Assembly (NCBI GenBank): GCA_024516035.1
Contig: CM044966.1
Location: forward strand, 15,204,346 to 15,268,345
Origin: Bactericera cockerelli
Lineage: Eukaryota; Arthropoda; Insecta; Hemiptera; Triozidae
Reading direction: 5' to 3'
DNA length: 64,000 nucleotides
Of the stretch, positions 22,604 through 63,740 are shown in pieces (the stretch's first letter is position 1; every line of letters starts with the position of its first letter). The notes under the pieces are model-generated. The model was not told the origin of the DNA. It saw only the letters and a program-made list of their open reading frames with translations, and did not search any database. The translations under genes and the position numbers were made by a program.

Positions 22604-22779
22604 CTGGTTAAGGATGGGCTCGGTGAAGTCCGCCCGCACACTGAACCGGAAAGTGTCGTTCAGGTCGGGGTCTCGGAAGGGGGAGCTGTGCTGGTAGGAG
22701 ACGCGAGAGGCGTTCACGTCGCCCTGTGTGAAGTTCAGGGGGAGCTCATACGCTGCCTTGTCGTTCACGTGCAGGAAAC
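22604..22779 (-). CDS. CSPG gene exon E21 (last exon recognised)
   Basis: The 176-bp exon enters in phase 1 after ATCAATCAG. It encodes FLHVNDKAAYELPLNFTQGD and VNASRVSYQHSSPFRDPDLN, then DTFRFSVRADFTEPILNQ, ending in phase 0 at CAG|GTGAGC. NFTQGDVNASRVSYQH...DTFRFSV is a full CSPG core. The intron after it starts with a C-run and a SINE within 12 bp, and the contig ends 170 bp further left. A 44-bp inverted copy of its 5' end is at 39006-39049. Confidence 0.9.
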
Positions 22780-22929
22780 CTGATTGATAGAACAGATAGA
22801 AAATTCGTTATTATTTTAAAAAAAAATATAATAATGGTCATATTACGACGGAGGTTTCACTTTCCATTCGCAAACCAGCTTCTCAAATTGATCAAACCCA
22901 GCCTGAGTGAGGCCCAGAAGTGTGGCCAG

Positions 22930-23085
22930 TTCCAGAAACACTCTCTACTCTCATAATCTCCGTTTCAACTGTCACACAACGCACTCTGATTGGTTATTGC
23001 GTTCAAATGAACCAATCAGAGTCCGTTGTGTGACAGTTGAAAGAGAGATTCGGGGATTTGGAGAGTAGAAAGTGTTTCTGGAATG
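22930..23085. mobile_element. Hairpin MITE, ~155 bp
   Basis: Left arm TTCCAGAAACACTCTCTACT ... ACTCTGATTGGTT, right arm AACCAATCAGAGTCCGTTGT ... AGAAAGTGTTTCTGGAA. The arms pair over most of their ~70 bp with one indel zone. Confidence 0.8.
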
Positions 23086-23908
23086 GACTAGGTACAGGTG
23101 TTTTACCATCGACACTGACTATTATGAGATAATAATAATATCACAACCACTTTTTATTTTCGAACATTAATAAAATTAATAAAACATGTATCAATATTTT
23201 AAAAAGGTACTCCTGCTCCATCTTCGATGAATCCATAACTGCGAGGGTGGTATCTGGATCCCCTCAGCCTCAAAGATACCGCTCGAATGACGGCGAAATG
23301 AATTTTTGTTTTACTCTTTTTTTTCAGAGACTGAGGCTGGTATGCAGAGACGATTTTGTAATCCCTATAGGGTTCACTGTAGGGTGGTCCTGAGCTTGCT
23401 ATAGGGAATACTTCGACCTTGACAATTTATTATTTATTAAAGAAACATCTGATTGCACATGCGCACAGACGCTTTAAACAAACGTCTCTGAATAACAAAA
23501 TCAGCTGAAGGGACAAATGACCCAGGCAGGCATCCCTACAGTGAGGACTCTGCATACAACCCTGACTATCATAAGCTGTATTTTACTTTCTAACCAAAGT
23601 TAACCAAACGGGAATAAAATGAACCAAACTGGAATCAAGTCATTTTTCTTTTGAAAGAGGAAAAATTTCCTCTTCCAAAGTTAACCAAAATGGAAGTAGA
23701 AAATTCTTGCTTCCAGTTCTTTTATAGGGTCCATTGTTTATCTTTAAAAGTACCGAAATGCATTTTTCTTTCACGAATGTGATGAAGTTGACCTTGGAAT
23801 AAAATGGAAATATTTGGAAAAAAACCTAACCTGGAATTTTTTTTTTTAATCCAAAAGAAAAATAGGCCTTATCATACATGTTTATTTTAGTGCTCACTCA
23901 AAACTCAC

Positions 23909-23993
23909 CATGTGCCGGGAGCTGTGTCACCACGAACAGCACAGTGCGCTCTCTATCTGAGCTCCACGCAGCCAGCTCGTGGGCGGAGATTAC
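23909..23993 (-). CDS. CSPG gene exon E20
   Basis: The 85-bp exon starts after ATTCCAG and encodes VISAHELAAWSSDRERTVLF and VVTQLPAH, ending in phase 1 at G|GTGAGT. It gives the helix/strand segment that precedes the FLHV...FTQGDV core in E21. Confidence 0.85.
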
Positions 23994-23999
23994 CTGGAA

Positions 24000-24115
24000 T
24001 TCATACACAATTATGTAGAAATACCATTTTCCAAATTATGTAAAAATACCATTTTCCAAATTATGTAAAAATATAATTTTCCAAATTAAGTAAAAATACC
24101 ATTTTCCAAATTTGT
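24000..24115. repeat. 26-bp tandem repeat, four units
   Basis: Four copies of AATTATGTAAAAATACCATT followed by TTCCAA, immediately upstream (right) of the E20 acceptor region. Confidence 0.85.
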
Positions 24116-24367
24116 ACAGCTCATAAAGAGACTTTAACTATACTATGACGAACCTCGGATAATCGAGGACCAGCAAATTCTTGTTCATTTGTTCTTGATT
24201 TACATAAACCTCCCTAGGGGGGGGGGGGAGGTTAAATTGAGGTAAAGGGGGTGGAAGTGGGGGCAAAAGATAGAAGTGGTCGAGACGGATCTTTTGACTG
24301 TAATATGTTGAGCCTCGGATAAACGAGACCAGAGTTATATCAAATTCTTTGCTAAATATATTTGTAC

Positions 24368-24632
24368 TGTTTTTCTTACTACTGGTATTTCATACATTAT
24401 AATAACTGCATTATAATTCATTGTAAAAATATAATCATTGTATTACATTATTATTATGATGATAAAAATGTTCACTTATTTGAAATCTTTTAAAAATATT
24501 GTTTTTCTTACTACTGGTATTTCATACATTATAATAACTGCATTATAATTCATTGTAAAAATATAATCATTGTATTACATTATTATTATGATGATAAAAA
24601 TGTTCACTTATTTGAAATCTTTTAAAAATATT
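24368..24632. repeat. 132-bp direct duplication
   Basis: GTTTTTCTTACTACTGGTAT at 24369 and again at 24501; the intervening 132 bp are repeated with no evident change. Confidence 0.9.
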
Positions 24633-24949
24633 GTTAAAAAAATATCCTAGAAAGCAGGACTTTGTACTCAAGTGTCGTCACACGGTTGTATATAAATAAA
24701 TATACTTCTTCTTCTCGTATACTCTGTAATTTTAATCTTATTGTAACATAATTATTTAATTTTTTTCCAAATTATTTTGGTCTGAGGTATTTATTTATAT
24801 TTGGAATTCGAAGTTTTAAACTATTTCAAATAAAATATTTCATTGAGATCTTCTGGGACTGGACATGCGCCCACTTTTTTTTTTAATTGTGTATCTTTAC
24901 CATCTATTGACTACTGTGCACTGGTGGTCAATTGGTCAAGGACAGTTCA

Positions 24950-25185
24950 ACTAACGTTGAATAGAGACCATCACTTCTCCAGCTGTAGCCAAGCTGGCTA
25001 CAACAACAACCATCACTCCCCCAGCTGTAGCCAAGCTGGCTAAAACAACAACCATCACTCCCCCAGCTGTAGCCAAGCTGGCTACAACAACAACCATCAC
25101 TCCCCCAGCTGTAGCCAAGCTGGCTACAACAACAACAACCATCACTCCCCCAGCTGTAGCCAAGCTGGCTACAACACCAACAACC
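24950..25185. repeat. About 41-bp tandem repeat next to the E19 donor
   Basis: Five to six copies of CCCCCAGCTGTAGCCAAGCT followed by GGCTACAACAACAACCATCACT. The unit derives from the start of the family-H interspersed repeat (43680, 48340), not from the exon. It ends about 10 bp from the E19 donor. Confidence 0.85.
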
Positions 25186-25194
25186 ACAACTTAC

Positions 25195-25343
25195 CTTGCT
25201 CAGCATAGGGAAAACGGAGAGACCCGAAGCTCGCGCGAGCGTCAACGAAGGCACCCGAGTGGAGGCGAGGAAGGAGAAGGGGGGCGTGGTGTGCACTGAG
25301 TCGGAGACCGTGGCTTCGAACCCCGCGGACGGCGAGGAATCTC
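25195..25343 (-). CDS. CSPG gene exon E19
   Basis: The 149-bp exon enters in phase 1 after CTCCCAG. It encodes DSSPSAGFEATVSDSVHTTP and PFSFLASTRVPSLTLARASG, then LSVFPMLSK, ending in phase 0 at AAG|GTAAGT. With E18 it reads FSHAGDSSPSAGFEATVSDS, the end of a CSPG repeat (F-x-A-x-VSDS). Confidence 0.88.
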
Positions 25344-26795
25344 CTGGGAGAGGAAATAATAAATAAATAAATGTGTTTCTTTGTGTTATTATAGCACATT
25401 TTTTAGTGGGTACCGCAGAGTTATAGGACTTTTCCATATCTCTTAATATCCTAACATTTTATTTTTGCCTATAATACCGCCACTGGTCGCTGAAAAAATC
25501 CTGCAGAAAAAATCCTGCCCGCTGGGAATCGAACCCAGGTCACCGTGCGTGCAATGCCTAGCGCGCTAACTCACTCTGCCACGGTGATTTCATCTGGGAG
25601 AGGAAATAATACCATACAATACAATACTCTGTTTATCCTGCAAGAATGAGGCAAGAGTGAGTCCCTTTACTCTCACAGTCCAAACAAAGTCTCATTTTTC
25701 AGTACTTCTTGTCGGTGACCGACCTCAGTAGCTTGATCGATAAGGCGGTGGACTTGTAACCTGGAGGTCGGTGGTTCAAGTCCCGGTTTCAGCGTAGATT
25801 TAGTGAAGCGAGTTTGAGTAGTTGTGATATCACGAAAGTGATTAACACAAATAATATGATAGCTAAAATAAAAAAAAAAAAACAATACAATACGCGTATA
25901 ATACAAAACCACGTTGATCCTGCAAGAATAAGACTTTTTTTTCTGTTCTTTTTACGAGGGGAAAATTTTTCCAAGGAAACAGTGAACCCGATACGCAAAT
26001 AGCAAACAAAACCGAACCCAAGAACAAGGACCACGGAGTATAAACACATAGTGATATGTATCTACAATTCTACACCCCCAAGTCCCAGCTATCGAGAAAG
26101 GCCTTACCAACTATGAGATCGGGAGGATGGGATTTGGCGAACTAAAACAACCCCTCGTTGAACCAAGGTAGAAAATCTGGGAACTATGATATTGCATCCA
26201 AGAATAAGACTAAAGAGTCCCTTTAGTCCCACAGCCTAAACCTAGTCTTATTTTTTAATATTCCTTATCGGTAATTTTATAGTACAAGTATAATTACAAT
26301 TAAAGCAACAAATAAACTAGTATGCATGAATTTATTTGTGGTGAAGCACAAGGCATCTTCACAATTTTTGTGGGTAGTGCAACATTACTAAGAGCCTCCT
26401 TCACTTTTCGAATTCTAGTACATTGATTTCTTTTTACTCTGGTAATTCCGCCACTGGTAAAACATTACTCATACAAGTAACTACTCATTTTTCCTCACGA
26501 GGTATGAGTGGACCCCGAACATCCAAGTGCAGAACAGAAAAATTCTTGTCCCGCTGGGGATCAAACCCAGATCAACATGTGTGTAATGCCTCGCGCGCTA
26601 ACTCACTCAGTAACTTACAACAAATTTATAGTATGACTAGCGTCACTTAAAATGACTCACCCCGTATATATTTATACTCAAATAAATAAAGAGGTGCTTT
26701 TTTAAACTGTTGGCATAATGGGACTACCTGTCTTGCGCTGACAGTCTAAATAAAGCACTACTTATACTTATATTGCCATAATATATGTTTAATTT

Positions 26796-27464
26796 ATTCA
26801 CTTACCTGCATGTGAGAACACGACCATGCCTGAGTGTATCTGAGCCTGGCTGAAGTTGTATATGGGCAGACCAGGGCTGGACTGGAAAGCTAGGAGTATG
26901 TTATATGTTTTATTTATTCACTTACCTGCATGTGAGAACACGACCATGCCTGAATGTATCTGAGCCTGGCTGAAGTTGTATATGGGCAGACCAGGGCTGG
27001 ACTGGAAGCTAGGAGTATGTTATATGTTTTATTTATTCACTTACCTGCATGTGAGAACACGACCATGCCTGAGTGTATCTGGGCCTGGCTAAAGTTGTAT
27101 ATGAGCAGACCAGGGCTGGACTAGGAGTATGTTTTATTTATTCACTTACCTGCATGTGAGAACACGACCATGCCTGAGTGTATCTGAGCCTGGCTGAAGT
27201 TGTATATGAGCAGACCAGGGCTGGACTAGGAGTATGTTTTATTTATTCGCTTACCTGCATGTGAGAACACGACCATGCCTGAGTGTATCTGAGCCTGGCT
27301 GAAGTTGTATATGGGGAGAGCAGGGCTGGACTAGGAGTATGTTATATTTATTCACTTACCTGCATGTGAGAACACGACCATGCCTGAGTGTATCTGAGCC
27401 TGGCTGAAGTTGTATATGGGGAGAGCAGGGCTGGACTAGGAGTATGTTTTATTTATTCACTTAC
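26796..27464 (-). repeat. Six tandem copies of the 3' half of E18 with donor (105-120 bp units)
   Basis: Donor copies at 26804, 27043, 27148, 27253, 27358 and 26924 (AC positions on the plus strand) are spaced 120, 119, 105, 105, 105 and 105 bp, leading to the true donor at 27463. Each unit includes about 76-80 bp of exon, GTAAGT and ~25 bp of intron. On the minus strand each copy is preceded by CATACTCCTAG, an acceptor-like sequence formed at the duplication seam. Confidence 0.92.
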
Positions 27465-27620
27465 CTGCATGTGAGAACACGACCATGCCTGAGTGTATCT
27501 GAGCCTGGCTGAAGTTGTATATGGGCAGACCAGGGCTGGACTGGAAGGCGAGGTGACCGTGATGAGAGGAGAGAATGGTGTAGGTGAGGTTCTCGGGGGG
27601 CGTGTCCAGATCTACACAGG
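27465..27620 (-). CDS. CSPG gene exon E18
   Basis: The 156-bp exon enters in phase 1 after TTCTCAG. It encodes CVDLDTPPENLTYTILSSHH, then LPIYNFSQAQIHSGMVVFSH and ends in phase 1 at CAG|GTAAGT. DLDTPPENLTYTI and FSQAQIHSGMVVFSHAG are CSPG landmarks. Its 3' half plus donor is repeated six more times on its left. Confidence 0.9.
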
Positions 27621-28150: not shown

Positions 28151-28343
28151 CCAAGACCTCATCACTGAGCGTGACGGTGGCTCCCCGGTAGATGGTGAGA
28201 CCGGTGTTGTTCCGGAGGCGGGGCGGTTGATCGTTCACCGGTGAGATGAGGATCTGAACGGTGGCCGGGTTCGATTCCTTGTCCCCCGCTCTCGCCACCA
28301 GCGTGAAGCTGTCGTTGTGGCTCTCGGACCCGTCGTGGATGTA
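28151..28343 (-). CDS. CSPG gene exon E17
   Basis: The 193-bp exon starts after GGTCCCCAG. It encodes YIHDGSESHNDSFTLVARAG, then ATVQILISPVNDQPPRLRNN and LTIYRGATVTLSDEVL, ending in phase 1 before GTGAGT. It completes one CSPG repeat (YIHDGSE..DSFTLVA), has the ISPVNDQPP linker and begins the next. Its acceptor region is amplified upstream. Confidence 0.9.
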
Positions 28344-29631: not shown

Positions 29632-30607
29632 AGTCTCACCTGGATCTGGCTTGTGTCTCACCTGGATCTGACTTGAGTCTCACCTGGATCTGACTTGTGT
29701 CTCACCTGGATCTGACTTGTGTCTCACCTGGATCTGACTTGAGTCTCACCTGGATCTGGCTTGAGTCTCACCTGGATCTGACTTGTGTCTCACCTGGATC
29801 TGACTTGAGTCTCACCTGGATCTGGCTTGAGTCTCACCTGGATCTGACTTGAGTCTCACCTGGATCTGACTTGTGTCTCACCTGGATCTGACTCAAGTCT
29901 CACCTGGATCTGGCTTGTGTCTCACCTGGATCTGGCTTGTGTCTCACCTGGATCTGACTTGAGTCTCACCTGGATCTGACTTGTGTCTCACCTGGATCTG
30001 ACTCAAGTCTCACCTGGATCTGGCTTGTGTCTCACCTGGATCTGACTTGAGTCTCACCTGGATCTGACTTGAGTCTCACCTGGATCTGACTTGAGTCTCA
30101 CCTGGATCTGACTTGAGTCTCACCTGGATCTGGCTTGTGTCTCACCTGGATCTGACTTGAGTCTCACCTGGATCTGACTTGTGTCTCACCTGGATCTGAC
30201 TTGTGTCTCACCTGGATCTGACTTGAGTCTCACCTGGATCTGACTTGTGTCTCACCTGGATCTGACTTGTGTCTCACCTGGATCTGACTTGTGTCTCACC
30301 TGGATCTGACTTGTGTCTCACCTGGATCTGACTTGTGTCTCACCTGGATCTGACTTGTGTCTCACCTGGATCTGACTTGTGTCTCACCTGGATCTGACTT
30401 GAGTCTCACCTGGATCTGACTTGTGTCTCACCTGGATCTGACTTGTGTCTCACCTGGATCTGACTTGTGTCTCACCTGGATCTGACTTGTGTCTCACCTG
30501 GATCTGACTTGTGTCTCACCTGGATCTGACTTGAGTCTCACCTGGATCTGACTTGTGTCTCACCTGGATCTGACTTGTGTCTCACCTGGATCTGACTTGT
30601 GTCTCAC
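29632..30607. repeat. 22-bp minisatellite of about 44 units built from the E16 donor junction
   Basis: The unit on the plus strand is GTCTCACCTGGATCTGACTT plus two bases. On the minus strand each unit reads GATCCAG|GTGAGAC, an exon end followed by a near-consensus 5' splice site. Variants (GTGTCT/GAGTCT, GACTT/GGCTT, CTCAA) are interspersed. The array runs straight into the true donor of E16, whose own last bases CAGATCCAG begin the series. Confidence 0.95.
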
Positions 30608-30850
30608 CTGGATCTGGCCCGCCTGCAGCTGCTGCGGGGTCCACCGCATGATAGCCACCCGGTTGCTGCTGAAGTAGAGGGCGCCGTGGCGACACTGGCG
30701 GATCACCCGGTACTCGGTGACCCGCCCCGAGTAGTAGGGGGAGAGGAGGGGCAGGAGGGAGGGGAGCAGGGTGATGTTGCCGCCCTCGTCCACGGAGGCG
30801 GGCGCCCCCGAGCTCAGGTAGATGTGCTCGGGGACTATGATGATGTTCAC
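30608..30850 (-). CDS. CSPG gene exon E16
   Basis: The 243-bp exon (81 codons, phase 0/0) starts after a run of C and CAG. It encodes VNIIIVPEHIYLSSGAPASV and DEGGNITLLPSLLPLLSPYY, then EYRVIRQCRHGALYFSSNRV and WTPQQLQAGQIQ before GTGAGAC. It has the whole first two thirds of a CSPG repeat. Both ends are copied: a 22-bp donor array on the left, 5'-end fragments on the right. Confidence 0.9.
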
Positions 30851-30951: not shown

Positions 30952-31303
30952 GAGCTCAGGTAGATGTGCTCGGGGACTATGATGATGTTCACCTGGGGGG
31001 GGGAGGGTAAGATATTGAAGGGGTTTTAATGGGTTATAAAATCCCTTCAAGATAGTGCAATATAGTCTGGCTCGGGGACTATGATGATGTTCACCTGGGG
31101 GTAGGGTAAGATATTGAAGGGGTTTTTTAATGGGTTATAAAACCCCTTCAAGATAGTGCAATATAGTCTGGCTCGGGGACTATGATGATGTTCACCTGGG
31201 GGGGGGGGGGGGGAAATAAAATTAAAAAATATATCCCCGTCTTTAGAAATAATAAATGAGCTCAGGTAGATGTGCTCGGGGACTATGATGAGATGATGCT
31301 CAC
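30952..31303 (-). repeat. Four fragments of the E16 5' end with poly-C acceptors
   Basis: Pieces of the first 25-46 bp of E16 with its CCCC...CAG acceptor occur at 30952-30992, 31069-31094, 31171-31195 and 31258-31303; a fifth piece without the acceptor is at 32294-32330. The C-run varies from about 5 to 13. Two fragments are fused to GTCTGGCT, the start of the 40-bp minisatellite motif. Short ATTGAAGGGGTTTT hairpins lie between them. Confidence 0.8.
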
Positions 31304-31314
31304 CTGCAGGGGGG

Positions 31315-33064: not shown

Positions 33065-33228
33065 CCGGAGACCCCGGATCCAGAGAATCCCGTTGGTGAC
33101 GTCCAACAGGAAGAAGTCCTGGGTTCGATTCTGGCCGCCCGCCTGCACATAGTGGAGCCGCTCCTCATTGATGGCGGCCTGGTCGAACCAGGCGGGACTG
33201 GTGGGCTCTGGACTCGCCGTGGCTGCCC
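33065..33228 (-). CDS. CSPG gene exon E15
   Basis: The 164-bp exon enters in phase 1 after GCCTAG. It encodes AATASPEPTSPAWFDQAAIN and EERLHYVQAGGQNRTQDFFL, then LDVTNGILWIRGLR, ending in phase 0 at CGG|GTAAGC. FDQAAINEERLHYVQAG is a CSPG core. A 72-bp 5' copy lies at 33546-33617. Confidence 0.87.
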
Positions 33229-33543: not shown

Positions 33544-33545
33544 TA

Positions 33546-33617
33546 GCCGCTCCTCATTGATGGCGGCCTGGTCGAACCAGGCGGGACTGGTGGGCTCTGG
33601 ACTCGCCGTGGCTGCCC
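33546..33617 (-). pseudogene. Copy of the 5' end of exon E15 with acceptor
   Basis: 72 bp matching the start of E15, with the acceptor changed from CCTAG to CCCAG but still ending in AG. No donor is present. It directly abuts a TTGAAGGGGTTTTA...TAAAACCCCTTCAA hairpin at 33506-33543. Confidence 0.8.
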
Positions 33618-33732
33618 CTGGGCGCCGGCACAACATTTATTATTATTATTATTTGCAATACCAAGGGTTGGGTGGAAGAGATTGCCACAGGCAATAACCC
33701 TGCCTTTTAGGTAGGACAATAATTAATAGGAC

Positions 33733-34060: not shown

Positions 34061-34794
34061 GATAAGACAGAGTAAAAGAAGAAGAAGAATACCAAGGGTT
34101 GGGTGGAAGAGATTGCCACAGGCAATAACCCCGCCCTTTAGGTAGGTCATTAACTTCATTTTCTTTTTTTTTTCTTTTTTTCCTGTATCTTTGCTTAATC
34201 TTATTGTTTTTCTTTATAATTTCATTCTATTTTACTATATGTATATATTTTTGTTCTACCTAATAAAGCTTACTATAATAATAATACCTAATAATAATTC
34301 TGGCAAATAAAAAAAGTCTGGCTGGGGGACTATAAACAGGGAGTGGACTAGCAGTCTGGCTGGGGGACTTAAAACAGGGAGCGGACCAGCAGTCTGGCTG
34401 GTCTACTCCCTGTTTATAGTCCCCCAGCCAGACTGCTGGCTTTTCCTTTTCATTGTTTTTATTGTTTCCATTTTTTTCATTCATTTATGTACGTATATTA
34501 TAAAGAATTTAAATGTGTTGATAACAGAAATAACCCAATGAGAGTGGCCCGAAACAATTTACCTACGGCAATGCCTCATTTTGTAGAGTAGGGTTAGGAA
34601 AAATAAATACAGGACCGTAATTCGTGTGCAGCCATATGGGAATTACAGATATTTTTTCATTATTTTTTAAAAGTTTCCATGGATTTATATTTCACAAATA
34701 AACATCTATCTTCAACAAATAATGAGGGTATACCCACCTTCAAAAGATAAAAATCTTGTGCTGAAGGTGGGGATATTAATTAACAGGGACTTAC

Positions 34795-34863
34795 CTCTTT
34801 CATTGGTGCTGAGAGGCGGGTCCAGTTCCAAGTACCCGTAGGTGGGCGTCTGGGTGACGTCAG
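34795..34863 (-). CDS. Possible E14 extension: in-frame copy of the E14 3' end with second donor
   Basis: On the minus strand, 87 bp after the E14 donor, a second AG|GTAAGTCCC donor follows a diverged copy of the exon end (DVTQTPTYGYLELDPPLST). The offset 34882-34795 is 87 bp, or 29 codons, and no stop lies between, so use of this donor would lengthen the product by 29 residues without changing phase. Whether it is used cannot be seen. It may be an alternative 5' splice site or a silent duplicate. Confidence 0.45.
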
Positions 34864-34881
34864 ATATTAACAGGGACTTAC

Positions 34882-34987
34882 CTATGTCATTGGTGCTGAG
34901 GGGCGGGTCCAGTTCCAAGTACCCGTAGCTGGGCGCCTGGGTGACGTGGTACACAATATCCGAGGCCGGCACCCCGGGCTGCTCGAT
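34882..34987 (-). CDS. CSPG gene exon E14
   Basis: The 106-bp exon starts after TTGCCAG with IEQPGVPASDIVYHVTQAPS and continues YGYLELDPPLSTNDI, ending in phase 1 at G|GTAAGT. It is the PxYGYLEL strand of a CSPG repeat. An 87-bp tandem copy of its 3' end with donor follows at 34795-34863, and the frame stays open through both. Confidence 0.87.
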
Positions 34988-37255: not shown

Positions 37256-37592
37256 CTGAGAATTATAATAATGTTTCTTTATTTATTTACACTTTATTTA
37301 AACGACGTATTATATACAATACAAATATTTACAAATTAAAATACAATATAATAGAAGAAAAAATATACAATATAATAATGTTTATTTTAGTAGTCACTGT
37401 GGTCGAGTGAGTTAGCGCTCTAGGCATTGCACACATGGTGACCTGGGTTCGATTCCCAGCGGGGGAGGATTTTTTCTGCTCTGTACTTGGATGTTCGGGG
37501 TCCACTCATACCTCGTGAGGAAAAATGAGCAGCTGCTTTGATGTGAAGCAGCGACTATCAGGTGTGAGGGTGGCCTTAATACTTATACTTAC

Positions 37593-37647
37593 TTAATCTG
37601 GGCGGGGTTCATATCCACATTGGTTTCACTGCCCAGGTGTGAGGGTG
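37593..37647 (-). pseudogene. Copy of the 3' end of exon E11 with donor
   Basis: About 55 bp matching the 3' end of E11 and followed by the same GTAAGTATAAG donor. It lies downstream, with a SINE and a retroposon tail between the copies. A short internal stretch of the exon is missing. Confidence 0.8.
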
Positions 37648-37853: not shown

Positions 37854-37998
37854 TTAATCTGGGCGGGGTTCATGTCCACATTGGTTTCACTCCCCAGGTG
37901 CTCAGGTGTGAGGGTAGCCTCACCCCCCTCCCTCACTATGAGGCTGCTAGAGTTCACAACTCGCACGTACGGGGCCGATGCGTGGATGTGAAGAATAC
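37854..37998 (-). CDS. CSPG gene exon E11
   Basis: The 145-bp exon enters in phase 1 after CTCGCAG. It encodes ILHIHASAPYVRVVNSSSLI and VREGGEATLTPEHLGSETNV, then MNPAQI, and ends in phase 2 at AA|GTAAGT. The pattern VREGGEATLTPEHL is the start of a CSPG repeat. A copy of its 3' end and donor lies at 37593-37647. Confidence 0.87.
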
Positions 37999-39005
37999 CT
38001 GCGAGGAATAAATAGGTAAATAAAATAAAATCAAAAAAAAGTTATAAAAAAAAGTTATCATAGTTGTGTTATCACTTTCGTGATATGAGTCTGGCTGGGG
38101 GACTATAAACAGGGAGTAGACAAGCAGTCTGGCTGGGGGACTATAAACTGATAAGAGACCCAACACATGCTTGCGCACTTCGGGTCTCTTCTACTGCAAT
38201 TTAAATAACAAAAAAACAATTTTAAGAATTTTATCTATGTATATAATATTATTTTATTTAAGTTTTGTTTCTGTGCTTCTTAATTGTTATATGTTTAAAA
38301 AAAATAAATGATGAAAAAGTATTAAAAAAAAAAAATATGTAATGGGTAGTTAAACGTAGAAGCAATAGGTATAGGTGCACACAGAATTTATGCACAATAT
38401 TGAAGGGGTTTCATAATGCATTAGTTCTTTTAAGCTACGAAAGTTTAGTTCAAAATGAGGCCCATCAGATAAGCTCAGTACTATAAAAGAATGCACAAGT
38501 CATAATAAAATGCATCGTATTGAAGGGGTTTTAATGCGCATTAAAACCCCTTCAATATTTTACCTCCAGCAAATCTTCTTCTTCTTTTTTTAATACGAGT
38601 TAATATGGGGTTTAATATAAAAGACCTGTTTGACTGCTGGAGTAGAGGGACTTTTCAGTCTTACCTCGACAGTATAAAAGAGGTTTATTCTATTCATTCA
38701 ATTCAATTCTATCTTATCTTCTTTGGACTACATCTACCAACTTTAATTTGATTGTTTGAAAACAAAGCTATTATTTACATTAGATAAAAGCTACATTTTA
38801 ATTGCACTATCATCATCATTGTACAGACAGTGGAGGAATGACTCAGCACTTCTACGACTGCCTTTACAAGGAGGCGAATAATTGACAAGGGTCCCCAGAA
38901 CCAAGCCAATGCTGGTCTACTCCCTGTTTATAGTCCCCCAGCCAGACAATTTACAAATAAATAAAATTAATATATTTAAAAAAAAAAAATCCATTTATCA
39001 ATCAG

Positions 39006-39049
39006 GTTTCCTGCACGTGAACGACAAGGCAGCCTATGAGCTCCCCCTG
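39006..39049 (+). pseudogene. Inverted copy of the E21 5' end with acceptor
   Basis: On the plus strand, TTATCAATCAG is followed by 44 bp matching the start of E21 (FLHVNDKAAYELPL). It is in the opposite orientation to the gene, about 16 kb from E21 in the E10-E11 intron. It stops just before a TTGAAGGGGTTTTA hairpin. Confidence 0.85.
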
Positions 39050-39110
39050 CCCTTCAATACACTATCTTGAAGGGGTTTTATAACCCATTAAAACCCCTTC
39101 AATATCTTAC

Positions 39111-39210
39111 CTTCGACAAAGTGGGCCCCGTCCGATACCCGCAGTACCACTGAGGGATGTGTCAGGTTGCTCTGGTGGCGGTATCTCACTCTGCCGGAGT
39201 CTATGTCGGC
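39111..39210 (-). CDS. CSPG gene exon E10
   Basis: The 100-bp exon starts after TTTCAG and encodes ADIDSGRVRYRHQSNLTHPS and VVLRVSDGAHFVE. E9-E10 reads AEFSQADIDSGRVRYRH, a textbook CSPG core ending in RVSDG. It ends in phase 1, G|GTAAGA. The intron begins with a short hairpin (39066-39104). Confidence 0.9.
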
Positions 39211-40765: not shown

Positions 40766-41017
40766 CTGTGAGAACTCAGCGAGGGGTGGGAGGGGTCGAA
40801 TAGGCGTGACCGCCGAGTACAGAGCTCCGCCCTCACTGGCGCGCACGCTGTAGATAATGTTGTGGGGCGTGGCGTCCATGTCTTCATCCGCGTACGAGAG
40901 ATGCGAGGGGAGGAGCAAGTGGGAGGAGTCAGAGACGAGCTCTAGCGTCTGATTGGCTGAGCGGTGAGGCGCGTTGTCATTGGTGAGAGCGACCGAGACG
41001 GATATAGTTCCGATGTA
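40766..41017 (-). CDS. CSPG gene exon E9
   Basis: The 252-bp exon (84 codons, phase 0/0) starts after CTCCAG with YIGTISVSVALTNDNAPHRS, has YADEDMDATPHNIIYSV and ends PPLAEFSQ before GTAATT. It holds an NDNAPH linker and the first half of the next CSPG repeat. Both ends have been copied: donor ends on the left (40330-40650), a 171-bp 5' part on the right (41323-41493). Confidence 0.88.
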
Positions 41018-41322: not shown

Positions 41323-41493
41323 GCTGTAGATAATGTTGTGGGGCGTGGCGTCCATGTCTTCATCCGCGTACGAGAGATGCGAGGGGAGGAGCAAGTGGGA
41401 GGAGTCACAGACGAGCTCTAGCGTCTGATTGGCTGAGCGGTGAGGCGCGTTGTCATTGGTGAGAGCGACCGAGACGGAGATAGTTCCGATGTA
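41323..41493 (-). pseudogene. Partial duplicate of exon E9 (5' part plus acceptor)
   Basis: 171 bp almost identical to the first 57 codons of E9, with the CTCCAG acceptor intact and an S-to-C change (LVCDSS). It has no donor and runs into a GAATAGAAATTAGAACAGAA tandem repeat (41220-41322). Two shorter copies of the acceptor region lie at about 41611-41645 and 41752-41786. Since transcription runs right to left, these acceptors come before the true one. Confidence 0.8.
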
Positions 41494-42237
41494 CTGGAGA
41501 TGTAGACGAGGGAGATGTTGAGTGATATAGGGAACAGATGTCCTTGTCAAATATATCGATATATCGCTCGAAACATATCGATATATTTTTCTGAGGGGTA
41601 TTTTTTTCTAGAGATAGTTCCGATGTACTGGAGATATAGACGATGGAGATGTTGAGTGATATAGGGAACAGATGTCCTTGTCAAATATATTGATATCGAT
41701 GTATCGCTCGAAACATATCGATATATTTTTCTGAGGGGTATTTTTTTCTAGAGATAGTTCCGATGTACTGGAGATATAGACGAGGGAGATGTTGAGTGAT
41801 ATAGGGAACGGATGTCCTTTTTAGTAAATATATCGGACCTCTCAAATCGGACATTTTTTTTTCATACATGGAGTATGAAAAGAAATGTGAAAAAACAGAA
41901 AAAAAAGAAGAACAAAAAAAATGTTTCTAGGAAAAAAAAATGTTTCTAGGAAAAAAAAATGTATTAACTGATGGATATGCTGTGTACTGGCAATCAGAAA
42001 AAATGCTGACAGCATCTTTGTTATATTTTTTTATAATAAATATAACATTTGTTTCTCTCTATCGATATATCGCTCGAAACATATCGATATATTTTTCCGA
42101 GGGGTTTCTAGAGAAGGCCGGGAATTGGCGGGAAAACGGTTTTTTGGTTCTGTAGACCTACAAAAAGTTGCTCAGTCCTAATCGGGCAGTATAAATAGGG
42201 CGATATTATTATTATTATTCTTAAATGAGTCAATTAC

Positions 42238-44180: not shown

Positions 44181-44189
44181 AAAAAAAAA

Positions 44190-44700
44190 TAGTTACCTGG
44201 TGATGTTCCTGGCTAATTGACAAGGGCCCCCAGAACTGGTCTGATCCCTGTTTATAGTCCCCCAACCAGACTGCTGGTCTACTCACTGTTTATAGTCCCC
44301 CAGCCAGACTGCTGGTCTACTCCCCCTTTCTAGTGTATTGGGTGTGTATGAATTTAAAAAAAAAATAGTTACCTGGTGATGTTCCTGGCTAATTGACAAG
44401 GGCCCCCAGAACTGGTCTGATCCCTGTTTATAGTCCCCAACCCAGACTGCTGGTCTACTTCCTCTTTCTAGTGTATTGGGTGTGTATGAATTAAAAAATA
44501 AAAAAAGTAGTTATCTGGTGATGTTCCTGGCTAATTGACAAGGGCCCCCAGAACTGGTCTGATCCCTTTTTATAGTCCCCCAGCCAGACTGCTGGTCTAC
44601 TCACTGATTATAGTCCCTCAGCCAGACTGCTGGTCTACTCACTGTTTATAATCCCCAACCCAGACTGCTGGTCTACTTCCTGTTTCTAGTGTATTGGGCG
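44190..44700. repeat. Three higher-order repeats carrying the E7 donor end
   Basis: Three units of about 140-190 bp, each with the E7 exon end plus donor (plus-strand ACCTGGTGATGTTCCTGG), then CTAATTGACAAGGGC and copies of a ~40-bp motif (TTTATAGTCCCCCAGCCAGA). In the third unit the donor GT is changed to AT (position 44514). Confidence 0.82.
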
Positions 44701-44962: not shown

Positions 44963-45117
44963 CTGGTGATGTTCCTGGTCACAATCTTCTTGCTGGTCAC
45001 AGCCTCGGTGAGGTCAAGGCGACCATGACGGGGCGGGGAAGTGACGCGGTAGAACAGAGAGGACACGCCGTGACACACGATGCCTCCCGAGAGGCGCTCC
45101 TGTCCCCCTTCCACTAC
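44963..45117 (-). CDS. CSPG gene exon E7
   Basis: The 155-bp exon follows a run of nine C and CAG. It encodes VVEGGQERLSGGIVCHGVSS, then LFYRVTSPPRHGRLDL and KKIVTRNIT, ending in phase 2 at AG|GTAACT. The pattern FYRVTSPPRHGRL is a CSPG strand. Copies of its last ~16 bp and donor lie at about 44197, 44373 and 44515. Confidence 0.87.
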
Positions 45118-45425: not shown

Positions 45426-46004
45426 TAACAACACTCTTTAAATATACATGGTTTTCTTTATATAAACCTTGAATCATCCCAAGAAACAAGAAGAAAAGAA
45501 AAATGTTTAAAAATGTTAAGTTTGTCAGTACTGTGTCTCACGGCAAGCATCACAGTGATGTCAGTCTGTAGTAAATATATTTACTATTTCTCTCTGTAAA
45601 ATATTCATCCTATAAAATATATAAGACCTGTTTGACTGCCGAGGTAAAGGGACTTTTCAGTCTTATCTCGGCAGTATAAACAAGGTATATTCTATTCTAT
45701 TCTCTACTGGAAGGTAACCACCAGGCGAGGTTAATGCTCAAAACATTTTCTACCATTTGACCCTCAGAGTGGTCATTATTATGTGGTCACAAACTCAAAT
45801 TAATGAGGAAAATTCATGCACTGGGTGGGATTTGAAACAACGAATCCCTACGCTACCTGGATTACCAGACTAGCGCCTTGACCACTTGACTATCAATGCA
45901 CAAAAGATGACTCGTTGACTCGCATTGAGATTTTTATTATAGTAAAAAAAATGTCCCGGCTGGGTTTCGAACCCGCGACCTGTGGATTGAGTCAGCCATC
46001 TGGT

Positions 46005-46936
46005 TGGCTTACCTGTAGGTTACTGATGGTGACTGTCAGGGGTGTAGTGTTGACTTACCTGTAGGTTACTGATGGTGACTGTCAGGGGTGTAGAGTTGAC
46101 TTACCTGTAGGTTACTGATGGTGACTTACCTGTAGGTTACTGATGGTGACTTACCTGTAGGTTACTGATGGTGACTGTCAGGGGTGTAGAATTAACTTAC
46201 CTGTAGGTTACTGATGGTGACTGTCAGGGGTGTAGAGTTGACTTACCTGTAGGTTACTGATGGTGACTGTCAGGGGTGTAGAATTGACTTACCTGTAGGT
46301 TACTGATGGTGACTGTCAGGGGTGTAGAGTTGACTTACCTGTAGGTTACTGATGGTGACTGTCAGGGGTGTAGAATTAACTTACCTGTAGGTTACTGATG
46401 GTGACTGTCAGGGGTGTAGAGTTGACTTACCTGTAGGTTACTGATGGTGACTGTCAGGTGTATAGAGTTGACTTACCTGTAGGTTACTGATGGTGACTGT
46501 CAGGGGTGTAGAGTTGACTTACCTGTAGGTTACTGATGTCGAATGTCAGGTGTGTAGAGTTGACTTACCTGTAGGTTGCTGATGGTGACTGTCAGGGGTG
46601 TAGAGTTGACTTACCTGTAGGTTACTGATGGTGACTGTCAGGGGTGTAGAGTTGACTTACCTGTAGGTTGCTGATGGTGACTGTCAGGGGTGTAGAGTTG
46701 ACTTACCTGTAGGTTACTGATGGTGACTGTCAGGGGTATAGAGTTGACTTACCTGTAGGTTGCTGATGGTGACTGTCAGGGGTGTAGAGTTGACTTACCT
46801 GTAGGTTACTGATGGTGACTGTCAGGGGTGTAGAGTTGGCTTACCTGTAGGTTACTGATGATGACTGTCAGGGGTGTAGAGTTGACTTACCTGTAGGTTG
46901 CTGATGGTGACTGTCAGGGGTGTAGAGTTGACTTAC
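46005..46936. repeat. 46-bp minisatellite of about 20 units built from the E6 donor junction
   Basis: Each unit carries, on the minus strand, GTAAGTCAACTC, a CCCCTGACAG segment, then the exon-end sequence TCACCATCAGTAACCTACAG, ending again at a donor. So every unit repeats the 3' end of E6 with a consensus 5' splice site. Two units near 46130-46160 are shortened. A few units carry the exon's own variant base (TTGCTGATGG against TTACTGATGG on the plus strand), which suggests exchange between exon and array. Confidence 0.93.
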
Positions 46937-47044
46937 CTGTAGGTTGCTGATGGTGACTGTCAGTTTCCTCAGCAGACTCACGTCAGGCGTGTACACAAAG
47001 CTGAGGTTCTGGCCCGTCACTACTTCACAGTGGGGCGCTGATAC
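46937..47044 (-). CDS. CSPG gene exon E6
   Basis: The 108-bp exon, phase 0/0, starts after TTGCAG with VSAPHCEVVTGQNLSFVYTP and ends LTVTISNLQ before GTAAGTC. Its last ~31 bp plus donor seed the 46-bp array on its left. I chose the rightmost donor because it is contiguous with the unique exon sequence. Confidence 0.85.
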
Positions 47045-57440: not shown

Positions 57441-60400
57441 ATAAAAATAAATAAGAACTTGTAGACAATCACAACCTAAATAAGGACACTCACCTTGTAG
57501 ACAATCACAACCTAAATAAGGACTCTCACCTTGTAGACAATCACAACCTAATTAGGAACTCTCACCTTGTAGACAATCACAACCTAATTAGGAACTCTCA
57601 CCTTGTAGACAATCACAACCTAATTAGGAACTCTCACCTTGTAGACAATCACAACCTAAATAAGGACTCTCACCTTGTAGACAATCACAACCTAAATAAG
57701 GACTCTCACCTTGTAGACAATCACAACCTAAATAAGGACTCTCACCTTGTAGACAATCACAACCTAAATAAGGACTCTCACCTTGTAGACAATCACAACC
57801 TAAATAAGGACTTTCACCTTGTAGACAATCACAACCTAAATAAGGACTCTTACCTTGTAGACAATCACAACCTAATTAGGAACTCTCACCTTGTAGACAA
57901 TCACAACCTAATTAGGAACTCTCACCTTGTAGACAATCACAACCTAATTAGGAACTCTCACCTTGTAGACAATCACAACCTAAATAAGGACTTTCACCTT
58001 GTAGACAATCACAACCTAAATAAGGACTCTTACCTTGTAGACAATCACAACCTAATTAGGAACTCTCACCTTGTAGACAATCACAACCTAATTAGGAACT
58101 CTCACCTTGTAGACAATCACAACCTAATTAGGAACTCTCACCTTGTAACCAATCACAACCTAATTAGGAACTCTCACCTTGTAGACAATCACAACCAATT
58201 AGAAACTCCACTTGTAGACAATCACAACCTAATTAGGAACTCCACCTTGTAGACAATCCCTAAACACAACCTAATTAGGAACTCCTCACCTTGTAGACAA
58301 TCACAACCTAAATAGGACACCTCACCTTGTAGACAATCACAACCTAATTAGGAACTCTCACCTTGTAGACAATCACAACCTAATTAGGAACTCTCACCTT
58401 GTAGACAATCACAACCTAATTAGGACTCTCACCTTGTAGACAATCACAACCTAATTAGGACTCTCACCTTGTAGACAATCACAACCTAATTAGGAACTTC
58501 ACCTTGTAGACAATCACAACCTAAATTAGGACTCTCACCTTGTAGACAATCACAACCTAAATAGGACTCTCACTTGTAGACAATCACAACCTAAATAAGA
58601 ACTCCACCTTGTAGACAATCACAACCTAAATAAGGACTTTCACCTTGTAGACAATCACAACCTAAATAAGGAACTCTCACCTTGTAGACAATCACAACCT
58701 AAATAAGGAACTTCACCTTGAACAATCACAACCTAAATAAGGAACTCTCACTTGTAGACAATCACAACCTAATTAGGAACTCACCTTGTAGACAATCACA
58801 ACCTAATTAGGAACTCTCACCTTTAGACAATCACAACCTAATTAGGAACTCTCACCTTGTAGACAATCACAACCTAAATAAGGACTTCACCTTGTGACAA
58901 TCACAACCTAATTAGGATCTACCTTGTAGACATACAACCTAATTAGGACTCTCACCTGTAGACAATCAAACCTAATTAGGAACTCTCACCTGTAGACAAT
59001 CACAACCTAATAGAACCTCACCTTGTAGACAATCACACCTAATAGGACTCTCACCTTGTAGACAATCACAACCTAAATAGGACTCTACCTTGTAGACAAT
59101 CACAACCTAATTAGGAACTCTCCTTGTAGACAATCACAACCTAATTAGGAACTCTCACCTTGTAACAATCACAACCTAATTAGGAACTCTCACCTTGTAG
59201 ACAATCACAACCTAATTAGGAACTCTCACCTTGTAAACAAATAAACCTACTTAGTGAAATCAACCTTTAGACATCACACTATTAGGAACTCTCACCTTGT
59301 AGACAATCACAACCTAATTAGAACTCTCACTTAAATCACAACCTAATAGAACTACCTGTAGACATCACAACCTAATTAGAACTCTCACCTTGTAGACAAT
59401 CACAACCTAATTAGGAACTCTCACCTTGTAGACAATCACAACCTAATTAGGAACTCTCACCTTGTAGACAATCACAACCTAATAAGGACTCTCACTTGTA
59501 GAACACACCTAATTAGGACTTCACCTTGTAGACAACAAACCAATTAGGAACTCTCACCTTGTAGACAATCACAACCTAATTAGGACTCTCACCTTGTAGA
59601 CAATCAACCTAAATAAGGACTCTCACCTTGTAGAATACAACCTATTGAACTCTCACCTTTAGACATCAAACCTAATTAGGAACTCACCTTGTAGACATCA
59701 CACTAATTAGGAACTCACCTTGTAGACAATCACCTAATTAGGAATCATCACCTTTGGAAAATCCTCCTTAATAAACCTATTAGACCTACACTAATTAGGA
59801 ATCTCACCTACCTTGTAGACAATCACAACCTAATTAGGACTCTCACCTTTAGACAATCACAACCAATTAGGACTCTCACCTTGTAACAATCACAACCTAA
59901 TAGGACTCACCTTGTAGACATCACAACTAATTAGGATCTCACTTGTAGACAATCACAACCTAATTAGGACTCTCACTTGTAGACAATCACAACCTATAGA
60001 CTCTCACTTGTAGACAATCACAACCTAATAGGACTCTCACTTGTAGACAATCACAACCTAATAGGACTCTCACTTGTAGCAATCACAACCTAATAGGACT
60101 TCACTTGTAGACAATACAACTATAGACTTCACTTGTAGACAATCACAACCTAATTAGGAATCTCACCTTGTAGACAACAACTAATGGACTCTACCTGTAA
60201 CACAACTAATAGGAACTCACCTGTAGACAATCACAACTAATAGGAATCTCACCTGTAACATCACAACCTAATTAGACTCTCACTTGTAGACAATCACAAC
60301 TAATTAGGATTCATTGTAGACAATCACAACTATGACTTCACCTTGTAGACAATCACAACCTAATAGGAACTCTACTTGTAGACAATCACAACTATAGACT

Positions 60401-62285
60401 CTACCTTGTAGACAATCACAACTAATTAGGAACTTCACCTTGTAGACAATCAACTAATAGGCTTCACCTTGTAGACATCACAACTAATTAGGAACTCTCA
60501 CTTTAGACAATCACAACTAATAGGACTCTCACTTTAGACAATCACAACCTATAGACTTACTTGTAGACAATCACAACTAATAGGACTCTCACCTTGTAGA
60601 CAATCAAACTAATAGGAACTCTCACTTGTAGACAATCAAACCAATAGGACTCCACTGTAGACAATCAAACTATAGGACTCTACTTGTAGACAATCAAACC
60701 TAATTAGGAACCTCACCTTGTAGACAATCACAACTAATAAGGACTCTCACCTTGTAGCAATCACAACCTAATAGGACTCTCACTGTAGACATCAAACCTA
60801 ATAGGACTCACCTGTAGACATCACAACCTAATAGGAACTCTCACCTTGTAGACAATCACAACCTAATAGGACTCCACCTTGTAACATCACAACCAATAGG
60901 ACCTCACTTGAGACAACAACTATAGACTTCACTTGTAGAAATCAAACTATAGGACTACTTGTAGACATCCAACCTTAGACCTACTTGTAGCATACACTAT
61001 AGACTTACTTGTGACATCCATAAGACTCACTGTAGACAATACAACATAGACCCTTCTTGTAGACAATCACAACCTAATTAGGAACTCTCACCTTGTAGAC
61101 AATCACAACCTAATTAGGAACTCTCACCTTGTAGACAATCACAACCTAATTAGGAACTACCTGTAGCATACAACCCATTGAACTCTCACTTGTAGACAAT
61201 CACAACCTAAATAAACTCTCACCTTGTAGACAATCACAACCTAATTAGGAACTCTCACCTTGTAGAACATCACAACCTAATTAGGAACTCTCACCTTGTA
61301 GACAATCACAACCTAATTAGGAACTCTCACCTTGTAGACAATCACAACCTAATTAGGACTCTCACCTTGTAGACAATCACAACCTAATTAAGGACTCTCA
61401 CCTTGTAGACAATCACAACCTAATTAGGAACTCTCACCTTGTAGACAATCACAACCTAATTAAGGAACTCTCACCTTGTAGACAATCACAACCTAATTAG
61501 GAACTCTCACCTTGTAGACAATCACAACCTAAATAAGGACTCTCACCTTGTAGACAATCACAACCTAATTAGGAACTCTCACCTTGTAGACAATCACAAC
61601 CTAAATAAGGACTCTCACCTTGTAGACAATCACAACCTAAATAAGGACTCTCACCTTGTAGACAATCACAACCTAATTAGGAACTCTCACCTTGTAGACA
61701 ATCACAACCTAAATAAGGACTCTCACCTTGTAGACAATCACAACCTAATTAGGAACTCTCACCTTGTAGACAATCACAACCTAAATAAGGACTCTCACCT
61801 TGTAGACAATCACAACCTAATTAGGAACTCTCACCTTGTAGACAATCACAACCTAAATAAGGACTCTCACCTTGTAGACAATCACAACCTAAATAAGGAC
61901 TCTCACCTTGTAGACAATCACAACCTAATTAGGAACTCTCACCTTGTAGACAATCACAACCTAATTAGGAACTCTCACCTTGTAGACAATCACAACCTAA
62001 ATAAGGACTCTCACCTTGTAGACAATCACAACCTAAATAAGGACTCTCACCTTGTAGACAATCACAACCTAAGGGTTGGGTGGAAGAGATCGCCTAAGGC
62101 AATAACCCCGCCCTTTAGTTAGGACATATATTATGTATTAATTTATTTTTTCTTTATTTTTTTCTTCTATTATATTGTATGCTAATTTGTAATTATTTGT
62201 GTTGTATATAATATGTCCTATTAATAAAGTGTAAATAAATAATAAATAAATAAAACCTAAATAAGGACTCTCACCTTGTAGACAA
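57440..62285. repeat. 36-bp minisatellite of about 130 units built from the E2 donor junction
   Basis: Units of 36 bp contain, on the minus strand, the last bases of E2 (GTTGTGATTGTCTACAAG) followed by |GTGAGAG and about 10 bp of intron, so each intact unit holds an exon end and a 5' splice site. Two unit types alternate irregularly: one with CTAAATAAGGACT, one with CTAATTAGGAACT (plus strand). The outer parts (57440-58150 and 61080-62070) are almost uniform. The centre (about 58180-61060) has many 1-6 base losses per unit. A retroposon tail (62071-62253) separates the last clean unit from the real exon. Copy number is estimated from length, not counted exactly. Confidence 0.93.
62071..62253 (+). 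mobile_element. Retroposon 3' tail (family I) inside the E2 array
   Basis: Starts with the recurrent motif GGGTTGGGTGGAAGAGATCG, continues with CCCCGCCCTTTAGTTAGGAC and a T-rich stretch, and ends in AATAAAG plus a TAAA-rich tail. Other copies or parts: 11840-12040 (-), 33650-33720, 34090-34280, 35040-35210 (-), 37675-37840 (-), 47105-47275 (-), 49680-49885, 50530-50715. The shared 3' end with a poly-adenylation-like signal suggests LINE-type retroposition; no reverse transcriptase is present. Confidence 0.65.
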
Positions 62286-62457
62286 TCACAACCTCGGGGT
62301 CATCCGAGTTGACGGAGAAGGAGAGATTGGTGGGTGTGATGTGGGTGTGAGAGTTGTGGATGAGCAGGGCTCCCGTGTTGTTCACCTGGTGGAGCTGGAG
62401 GGGGTAGACAGCTACGCTGAGGTAGGCCACATTACTGGTGGCTATACCATCCGACAC
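62275..62457 (-). CDS. CSPG gene exon E2
   Basis: The 183-bp exon is phase 0 at both ends. It opens with VSDGIATSNVAYLSVAVYP, which completes the CSPG repeat begun in E1 (FKLRVQ joins VSDG), and ends DDPEVVIVYK before GTGAGA. The last 24 exon bases plus the donor are the seed of the huge 36-bp array on its left. A 57-bp copy of its 5' end with acceptor lies at 62493-62549. Confidence 0.88.
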
Positions 62458-62492
62458 CTGGAGTAGAATAGAATAGAATAAAATAGTTGTAG

Positions 62493-62549
62493 GGGGTAGA
62501 CAGCTACGCTGAGGTAGGCCACATTACTGGTGGCTATACCATCCGACAC
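62493..62549 (-). pseudogene. Copy of the 5' end of exon E2 with its acceptor
   Basis: 57 bp matching the first 19 codons of E2 and preceded on the minus strand by TTTCAG, so the acceptor was copied too. It lies 36 bp upstream of the true E2 acceptor and has no donor. Confidence 0.75.
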
Positions 62550-62790
62550 CTGAAATAGAATAGAATAGTTGTAGGAGATTGGTGGGTGAGATGAGGATGA
62601 GTTTTTGACAGAAATTTATTTGAAAAATCTGCTTCAAAAGAGAATAATTGTATACGGAAACTTTCCTTCTGCCTTCCCTTGCAAGACTTTTCCTATGTAT
62701 TTTCTCATTGATATGTCATTTGTGAAAAAAATGTATGTTCAATTCTCAGTAGCTTAGGAAAAATACCTTTGTATATGTTATCCTGTTATT

Positions 62791-62821
<31 letters not shown>

Positions 62822-62897
62822 CAGAATCTCTGGACTCAGATCTCAGAATATGGGCAGTGGTCACAACCTTTACATCACGAAGGCTGGATAAACTCAC

Positions 62898-63045
62898 CTG
62901 TACTCTGAGCTTGAAGGCCGCGCTGGGCCCGCGGCCCGTGTGCACGTACTGGACGCGGCCCTCCCTCAGCTGCAGACTCGTGAAGGCGGCCGAGGGGGCG
63001 TGGTCTAGCTCCACGTGACCCAGGAGGCCCGTGGGGGGGGGGGCC
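62898..63045 (-). pseudogene. Partial duplicate of exon E1 (3' part plus donor)
   Basis: About 148 bp nearly identical to the 3' part of E1, including the CTCAC|CTG donor border. It lacks the first ~90 bp and the acceptor. It differs by a missing serine/alanine codon and an S-to-R change (LREGR for LSEGR). Upstream on the minus strand there is an A-rich stretch and no pyrimidine tract, so it is probably not an exon. It may be a real tandem duplication or two haplotypes placed in series. Confidence 0.75.
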
Positions 63046-63059
63046 GAGGATGAACTTTT

Positions 63060-63480
63060 TTTTTCTCGTTTTTATTTGTGTTTATACATTTTTATTTTTT
63101 CTTTTCTAGTCCTCAAATTATTTAAATGCTCTTTGTTCCTACCTACCTAGTACACCTATTTTAATTATATAACTTAGATTTAATTTAATTTGTTAATTAG
63201 CATGTAAGTTTGTACACATACAATAAATGTATCCTTTAGTACAATAAAATTGAAATTGAAAATTGAAATTGAAAATTAAATTTGAAAAATTGAAAATTAA
63301 AATTGAAAAATTGAAATTGAAATTGAAAATTGAAATTGAAAATTAAAATTGAAATTGAAAATTGAAATTGGAAATTGAAATTGAAAATTGTAATTGAAAA
63401 TTTTAATTGAAAATTGAAATTGAAATTGAAAATTAAAATTGAAAAATTGAAATTGAAATTGAAAATTGAAATTGAAACTC
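63060..63480. repeat. E1-E2 intron start: (GAAATTGAAAATT)n microsatellite and T/A-rich DNA
   Basis: 63240-63478 is built from TTGAAAATTGAAATTGAAA units reaching the E1 donor. 63060-63240 is AT-rich without gene content. Confidence 0.88.
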
Positions 63481-63482
63481 AC

Positions 63483-63740
63483 CTGTACTCTGAGCTTGAA
63501 GGCCGCGCTGGAGGGCCCGCGGCCCGTGTGCACGTACTGGACGCGGCCCTCACTCAGCTGCAGACTCGTGAAGGCGGCCGAGGGGGCGTGGTCTAGCTCC
63601 ACGTGACCCAGGAGGCCCGTGGGGGGGGCGGCCGCTGCTGAGGAGGAGGAGGAGTCGTTCACGTGGAAGAGGAGCTCGGAGGGGGGCGAGTCTAGGTCTG
63701 AGGCGAGCAGCAGGTCAGGGGTCAGGGTCTTGCGGGTGCC
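63483..63740 (-). CDS. CSPG gene exon E1 (CSPG repeat)
   Basis: The 258-bp exon gives residues 1-86 of the chained product. It starts after a poly-C/AG acceptor and ends CAG|GTGAGT (phase 0). It encodes GTRKTLTPDLLLASDLDSPP, a serine/alanine-rich stretch, GLLGHVELDHAPSAAF and EGRVQYVHTGRG, then FKLRVQ. That is a complete CSPG repeat except for the VSDG tail, which the next exon supplies. This is the most 5' exon recognised; no start codon or signal peptide is present, so the gene continues beyond the right edge. A partial copy lies at 62898-63045. Confidence 0.85.

Follow-up and report, generated by a model that had tools for sequence, protein, structure and literature searches.

Local duplications across exon–intron borders in a CSPG4-like gene and other genes of the psyllid Bactericera cockerelli

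Border repeats in other systems and in the psyllid

Minisatellite-like duplications that cross exon–intron borders, at either end of the exon, have been described in amphioxus as "mirages" in Adh3, the globin genes BflGb6 and BflGb9, TnC and PGBD5 (PMC3087553, PMC3902484, in the parts of the text available). According to the same parts, mirage units are approximately 10–160 bp long, many carry the AG/GT signals, and the unit number of BflGb6 differs by haplotype (6 and 3). Somatic instability has been reported for the Adh3 mirage (via PMC3087553). We describe a comparable pattern in an insect, the psyllid Bactericera cockerelli. The window, which is the whole stretch of 64,000 nucleotides that was analysed (GCA_024516035.1, contig CM044966.1, positions 15,204,346 to 15,268,345), holds part of a CSPG4-like gene on its minus strand. 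An original prediction proposed that the exon–intron borders of this gene had been copied repeatedly; the observation holds, and its interpretation as a whole is partly supported.

As in amphioxus, the repeat unit in the psyllid spans the border (10/21 donors and 4/21 acceptors in the window gene; 17/50 donors over five genes under a stricter rule), and splice signals are present in many array units (20/20 at exon E6, 44/44 at E16). The unit number varies by haplotype in amphioxus, whereas in the psyllid it varies among three gene copies, which are alleles or paralogues. The psyllid case further differs in its insect host, in affecting about half of the donors of one gene plus several other genes, in an array of up to ~128 unit lengths, and in a hotspot measured against introns. 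The available text reports RT-PCR for the amphioxus globins, whereas the psyllid arrays are known here from DNA alone. The pattern is an amphioxus-type mirage in an insect, and its scale and the hotspot measurement are the new part. In the open-licence PMC literature, no border minisatellites in insects were found.

Introners and other intron-making transposons likewise multiply many splice sites in one genome. They are one element family at many genes, whereas the copies at each psyllid border matched their own exon, and the units of E2, E6, E16 and E18 were unlike one another; the psyllid copies are not introners by this measure. Duplicated mutually exclusive exons also repeat coding pieces and splice sites within one gene, but here mostly exon ends rather than whole exons were repeated, and the units were nearly identical. 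A muscle myosin locus (L033) looks like an ordinary duplication of this mutually exclusive kind. Tandem duplication across AGGT is reportedly a route of intron gain (the Rogers model). The psyllid shows the raw event that the model requires, a doubled splice site, but here the extra copy lengthens an existing intron, and no newly gained one was observed.

Copied borders and their excess over introns

A scan of the minus strand for splice sites and codons gave 21 internal exons in the window, from 63740-63483 (E1) to 22779-22604 (E21). With the requirement that a copy reach 8 bp or more to either side of the junction, same-strand local copies were found at 10 of the 21 donors and 4 of the 21 acceptors (Table 1). 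The copied donors were those of E1, E2, E6, E7, E9, E10, E11, E14, E16 and E18. All nine donors named in the original prediction were among them (9/9), and E10 was additional. The E10 copy is weak and failed a stricter rule, which required at least 8 ungapped bases on both sides of the junction, leaving 9/21 donors. The copied acceptors were those of E2, E9, E15 and E16; E17, also named, dropped out, with only about 2 exon bases shared with its adjoining 29-bp minisatellite. The predicted inverted distant copy at E21 was recovered (22729-22789 against 39056-38996, 95%).

Five donor junctions had been said to have become tandem arrays with a 5′ splice site in every unit. In the window copy of the gene, the repeats were strictly tandem at the donors of U5, E6, E16 and E18 and lay within 5 bp at E14; the remaining six donor copies sat 91–548 bp off their donors, and the E2 array began ~200 bp beyond the real E2 donor. 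Every traced unit carried the splice site at E6 (20/20), E16 (44/44) and E18 (4/4). This was not the case for E2, with 76 AAGGTGAG and 88 GTRAGA over ~128 unit lengths. Both ends of the E2 array (57458-62072) were clean, and its middle was noisy with 1-bp indels, suggesting consensus errors. The unit number of this array is uncertain given the indel-rich middle.

Local repeats covered 40% of the intron positions of the window gene. This raw coverage was discarded as a background, as large arrays are counted many times in it. Collapsing the intron repeats to their ancestral positions gave a background of 12.2% in the donor sense and 12.9% in the acceptor sense. Against it, the donors of the window gene were in clear excess (10/21, p = 7e-5; 9/21 without E10, p = 4e-4), with binomial p values, here and below, that assume independent exons and are only roughly valid. 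The acceptors showed no significant excess (4/21, p = 0.28).

The comparison was extended to 50 exons: the 21 window exons, eight exons that lie farther upstream in this gene, and 21 exons of four myosin genes. Five myosin loci had been chosen from domain matches before their DNA was seen, and the scan yielded exons in four. The muscle myosin L033, three kinase donors (L039 being without a clear donor) and one further L034 exon without a clear donor were left out of the 50. Over the five genes, 18/50 donors were duplicated against 4.7 expected (p = 3e-7); the stricter rule gave 17/50 against 3.8 (p = 9e-8). The process that had been proposed to duplicate borders locally and repeatedly is thus supported beyond this gene, and repeats lay nearer to donors than chance would place them, so that the outcome which the original prediction had named as refuting it did not appear. 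The myosin genes alone gave 7/21 donors against 1.6 expected (p = 6e-4), or 7/29 with the left-out loci included (p = 1.2e-3). Exon 9 of MYO7, preceded by an acceptor array and followed by a 22-bp donor array, joined the set only once its acceptor array had been noticed; without it the myosin donors were 6/20 (p = 2.8e-3). So many events in one gene had been called unusual, which does not apply in this genome, where the donors of the four myosin genes are affected at a similar rate.

The pooled acceptors gave 9/50 against 5.1 expected (p = 0.065) and 7/50 under the stricter rule (p = 0.12). They do not stand as a second class of copied borders, as the original prediction had them. With copy identity of at least 92% they were 7/50 against 2.8 (p = 0.02), and with at least 96%, 5/50 against 1.4 (p = 0.013). 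Some acceptor calls are poorly in register (B:U6, L035:2 and U7 of the gene copies).

It is quite improbable that there is no hotspot, with tandem duplication uniform in introns, a repeat-rich gene picked for study, and longer survival of exon-anchored copies adding to the effect. The high raw repeat coverage and the unremarkable acceptors of the window gene would fit such an account, but its donors were at 48% against 12% in the collapsed background, and the excess recurred in the myosin genes, whose choice preceded any look at their DNA. The excess also increased with copy identity: 15/50 donors against 2.1 expected at 92% or more, and 10/50 against 1.2 at 96% or more. Slow decay of exon-anchored copies is therefore not its cause. 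In a detection test, an 80-bp duplication was found at a similar rate at donors (0.97) and in introns (0.88).

The duplication rate was highest at −5 to +5 of the junction, with 0.34 at donors and 0.18 at acceptors. It was near background at +100 to 150 (0.12 and 0.10). Farther in, the donor rate was 0.02 at +150 to 250 and then returned to 0.07–0.13, and the acceptor rate stayed at about 0.1 throughout. GC-matched intron positions predicted 5.85 duplicated donors against the 18/50 observed. Because GC-rich intron positions were themselves duplicated up to 2 times as often as others, base composition accounts for part of the donor excess, not the whole.

The donor motif could be slip-prone in itself, so that any CAGGTRAGT seeds repeats whether spliced or not. 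In the whole genome, pairs of motifs 10–40 bp apart numbered 756 for CAGGTAAGT against 19 for the reversed motif, and 2792 for CAGGTGAGT against 64. This ~40:1 ratio of tandem donor motifs counts unit pairs rather than arrays, is dominated by arrays and has the reversed motif as its sole control. Among the matches listed, all on C1, one motif search hit 7 places, made up of 5 different units, and the other hit 4, made up of 3. Isolated motifs were about as frequent as their reverse (5 vs 3 and 6 vs 7) in 194 kb that include two near-copies of the CSPG4-like gene. The ~40-fold ratio favours a slip-prone motif, but intronic donor-like sites with a score of at least 6 were duplicated at background level (2/43 sense, 1/27 antisense) against 13/32 real donors (2/43 vs 13/32, p = 2e-4), which makes this explanation very improbable. 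At a laxer score of 5, the counts were 8/82 sense and 8/59 antisense intronic sites and 14/37 real donors. As intronic sites of equal score were at background, an exon edge is required, not the motif.

Proposed origin of the border copies

We consider that psyllid exon–intron borders are probably hotspots of local tandem or near-tandem duplication, mainly at 5′ splice sites, followed by minisatellite expansion and filtered by exon integrity. A block of ~20–150 bp across the border would be copied. Of the resulting two, the one attached to the exon would stay in use, and the other would turn into intron. Such duplications could persist while the spliced message stays unchanged; those inside an exon would alter the protein. 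From two copies on, minisatellite slippage or unequal exchange may expand the array to tens of units. The excess would be mutational in this scheme, and selection would remove exon-interior and many acceptor duplications. The first, exon-proximal donor is presumably the one used. The protein of a related psyllid runs through the E1–E21 junctions without an array-sized insert, which fits use of that donor, although that species may itself be free of arrays.

The original prediction took the regular direction of the copies, with donors copied downstream and acceptors upstream, as evidence of its own. This direction is forced by geometry and is uninformative, because a border-spanning tandem duplication can only end with one of its copies attached to the exon and its other copy within the intron.

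A wider claim can be made only tentatively: splice junctions of working exons may be a targeted duplication hotspot in this insect lineage, at ~7 times the intron rate, linked to exon edges or splicing and not to the donor motif, with gene architecture rewritten between near-identical copies.

Several points weigh against a mutational hotspot. Substitution among the units of eight arrays was 0.52% in the donor, 1.82% in exon-derived and 4.79% in intron-derived parts (variable columns 3/72, 18/281 and 16/117), and the lower variation of the donor and exon-derived parts could mean selection. A hotspot set by a GC step alone should affect both ends of an exon; an excess at acceptors is unproven (p = 0.28, 0.065 and 0.12), and the predominance of donors over acceptors (18 vs 9, p = 0.07) is only suggestive. 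At the muscle myosin L033, which gave no exon in the scan and for which domain matches were used, 0/5 donors were duplicated, and at three kinase loci 0/3. Single 40-bp duplications were nearly invisible in the detection test (1/31, 1/150), so that the counts are lower bounds. The exon models were drawn from the scan rather than from annotation or RNA.

The main rival, kept alive by the low variation of the donor and exon parts, is that selection retains the copies, their extra 5′ splice sites holding U1 snRNP, buffering or regulating splicing, or guarding long introns. We regard it as unlikely. It would explain why the excess is strongest at donors, why pseudo-donors within introns are not duplicated and why donor columns are the least variable. 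Yet unit numbers range from 1 to 26 or from 0 to more than 60 among near-identical gene copies, E2 units are often without an intact donor, and the exon-derived bases are also little varied, as re-copying from a fixed exon would yield. Unit conservation was dismissed as proof of selection, as array units are related by descent and their columns are not independent.

Should borders prove to be genuine hotspots, gene structure itself would set the pace at which intron length, cryptic splice sites and perhaps new introns or protein repeats come about. The old amphioxus observation also becomes testable in a rearable insect that can be sequenced in families.

Gene copies, host gene and feature coordinates

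Three near-identical copies of the gene (A, B′ and B, the window copy) lie side by side on the same contig (C12:15000001-15298000). Exons of the copies differ by 1.8–2.2% and colinear blocks by 3.2–4.3%. Copy A is without E3–E10, and copy B′ is without E17 and E18, beside a 5000-base N run. Duplicated donors numbered 8/21 in A, 8/26 in B′ and 11/29 in B, and duplicated acceptors 3/21, 5/26 and 6/29. The number of extra donor copies varied between A, B′ and B: 7/17/1 at E1, 26/4/1 at E11 (~26 in A) and 1/11/1 at E14. The E2 array was present only in B.

The copies are likely unpurged alleles, and three in number fits paralogy too. Assemblies of Diaphorina citri are reported to contain allelic segments commonly as false tandem copies (PMC9933525, in the part of the text available). 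Together with the indel-rich middle of the E2 array and the separate contig piece on which the window gene sits, this report would agree with an assembly artefact, in which repeats were collapsed or expanded in a draft of noisy reads. We regard such an artefact as extremely improbable, as arrays at the same borders occur in three separately assembled gene copies and in other genes, and the units at array ends are clean. Even so, array unit numbers may be wrong through assembly. Many kinase matches elsewhere in the genome are likewise in near-identical pairs.

The exon chain E1–E21 has consistent phases without gaps and gives a single open frame of 1193 aa. The closest protein was CSPG4 of Cacopsylla melanoneura (74% identity over 100% of the query), with Diaphorina citri second, and the human-type CSPG4 structure 7ml7_B in the PDB matched at 6e-13. 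The nearest proteins thus point to a psyllid or a close relative as the source. Amphioxus had also been considered; a GFP-family search made for this gave no match but carries little weight. Pfam Cadherin_3 was above the cut-off in 1/10 reading frames tried, plus 8 genome matches. The gene is assigned to CSPG4-like genes on these Cadherin_3/CSPG repeats and CSPG4 homologues. A Pfam search of seven other open frames in the window gave no match, nor did a protein search with a single exon as the query. Two 100-base N runs (window 2185-2284 and 22333-22432) show that the window is made of three joined contig pieces. The last exons are missing from the window because the contig piece of the gene begins 171 bp past E21.

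Table 1. Window exons with copied or adjoining repeats (window coordinates)
Feature	Position	Strand	Copies or array
E1	63483..63740	-	first 5′ exon of the originally predicted chain; donor copy ~62890-63046 (160 bp, 97%)
E2	62275..62457	-	acceptor copy 62485-62568; donor seeds 36-bp array
E2 36-bp array	57458..62072	-	~128 unit lengths; unit is the last 20 bases of E2 plus donor
E6	46937..47044	-	donor seeds 46-bp array
E6 46-bp array	46003..46963	-	20 units traced past the real donor, GT in 20/20
E7	44963..45117	-	three donor copies near 44485-44530, 44352-44388, 44170-44212
E9	40766..41017	-	acceptor copy with 171 exon bases, 41323-41513 (99%), plus two shorter copies
E9 donor copies	between 40270 and 40664	-	array untraceable unit by unit
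E10	39111..39210	-	weak donor copy 38520-38573 (85%)
E11	37854..37998	-	donor copy 37580-37639 (97%)
E14 with donor copy	34779..34987	-	E14 is 34987-34882; one 87-bp donor copy behind it
E15	33065..33228	-	acceptor copy 33545-33648 (97%)
E16	30608..30850	-	acceptor copies 31171-31207 and near 30952, 31258; donor seeds 22-bp array
E16 22-bp array	29633..30616	-	44 traced units, AGGT in 44/44
E17	28151..28343	-	acceptor adjoins 29-bp minisatellite; AG shared but only ~2 exon bases; fails the 8-bp rule
E18	27465..27620	-	donor seeds 105-119-bp array
E18 105-119-bp array	26782..27547	-	last 78 bases of E18 plus donor; ~7 units by TRF; GT in 4/4 traced
E21	22604..22779	-	contig break 171 bp beyond E21
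E21 acceptor end	22729-22789		one inverted copy at 39056-38996 (95%)

E10 and E21 swap inverted pieces. The start of E21 in the window (22729-22789) lies inverted directly behind E10 (38996-39056), and copy A carries inverted E10 pieces directly behind E21 (15022437-15022495 and 15022638-15022678).

Border copies also carry a practical warning, as gene predictors mistake them for exons; the exon scan used here did so too. The 87-bp array at E14 of copy B′ (C12:15150365-15149390) keeps an open frame, in phase, over all 11 units; with splicing from a later donor it could supply a 29-residue protein repeat. In P0002, a protein predicted for Diaphorina citri, the last part of the U6-equivalent exon is repeated at the donor of that exon, as a 22-residue repeat (residues 436-479). 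In this second psyllid, a border copy may have been annotated as coding.

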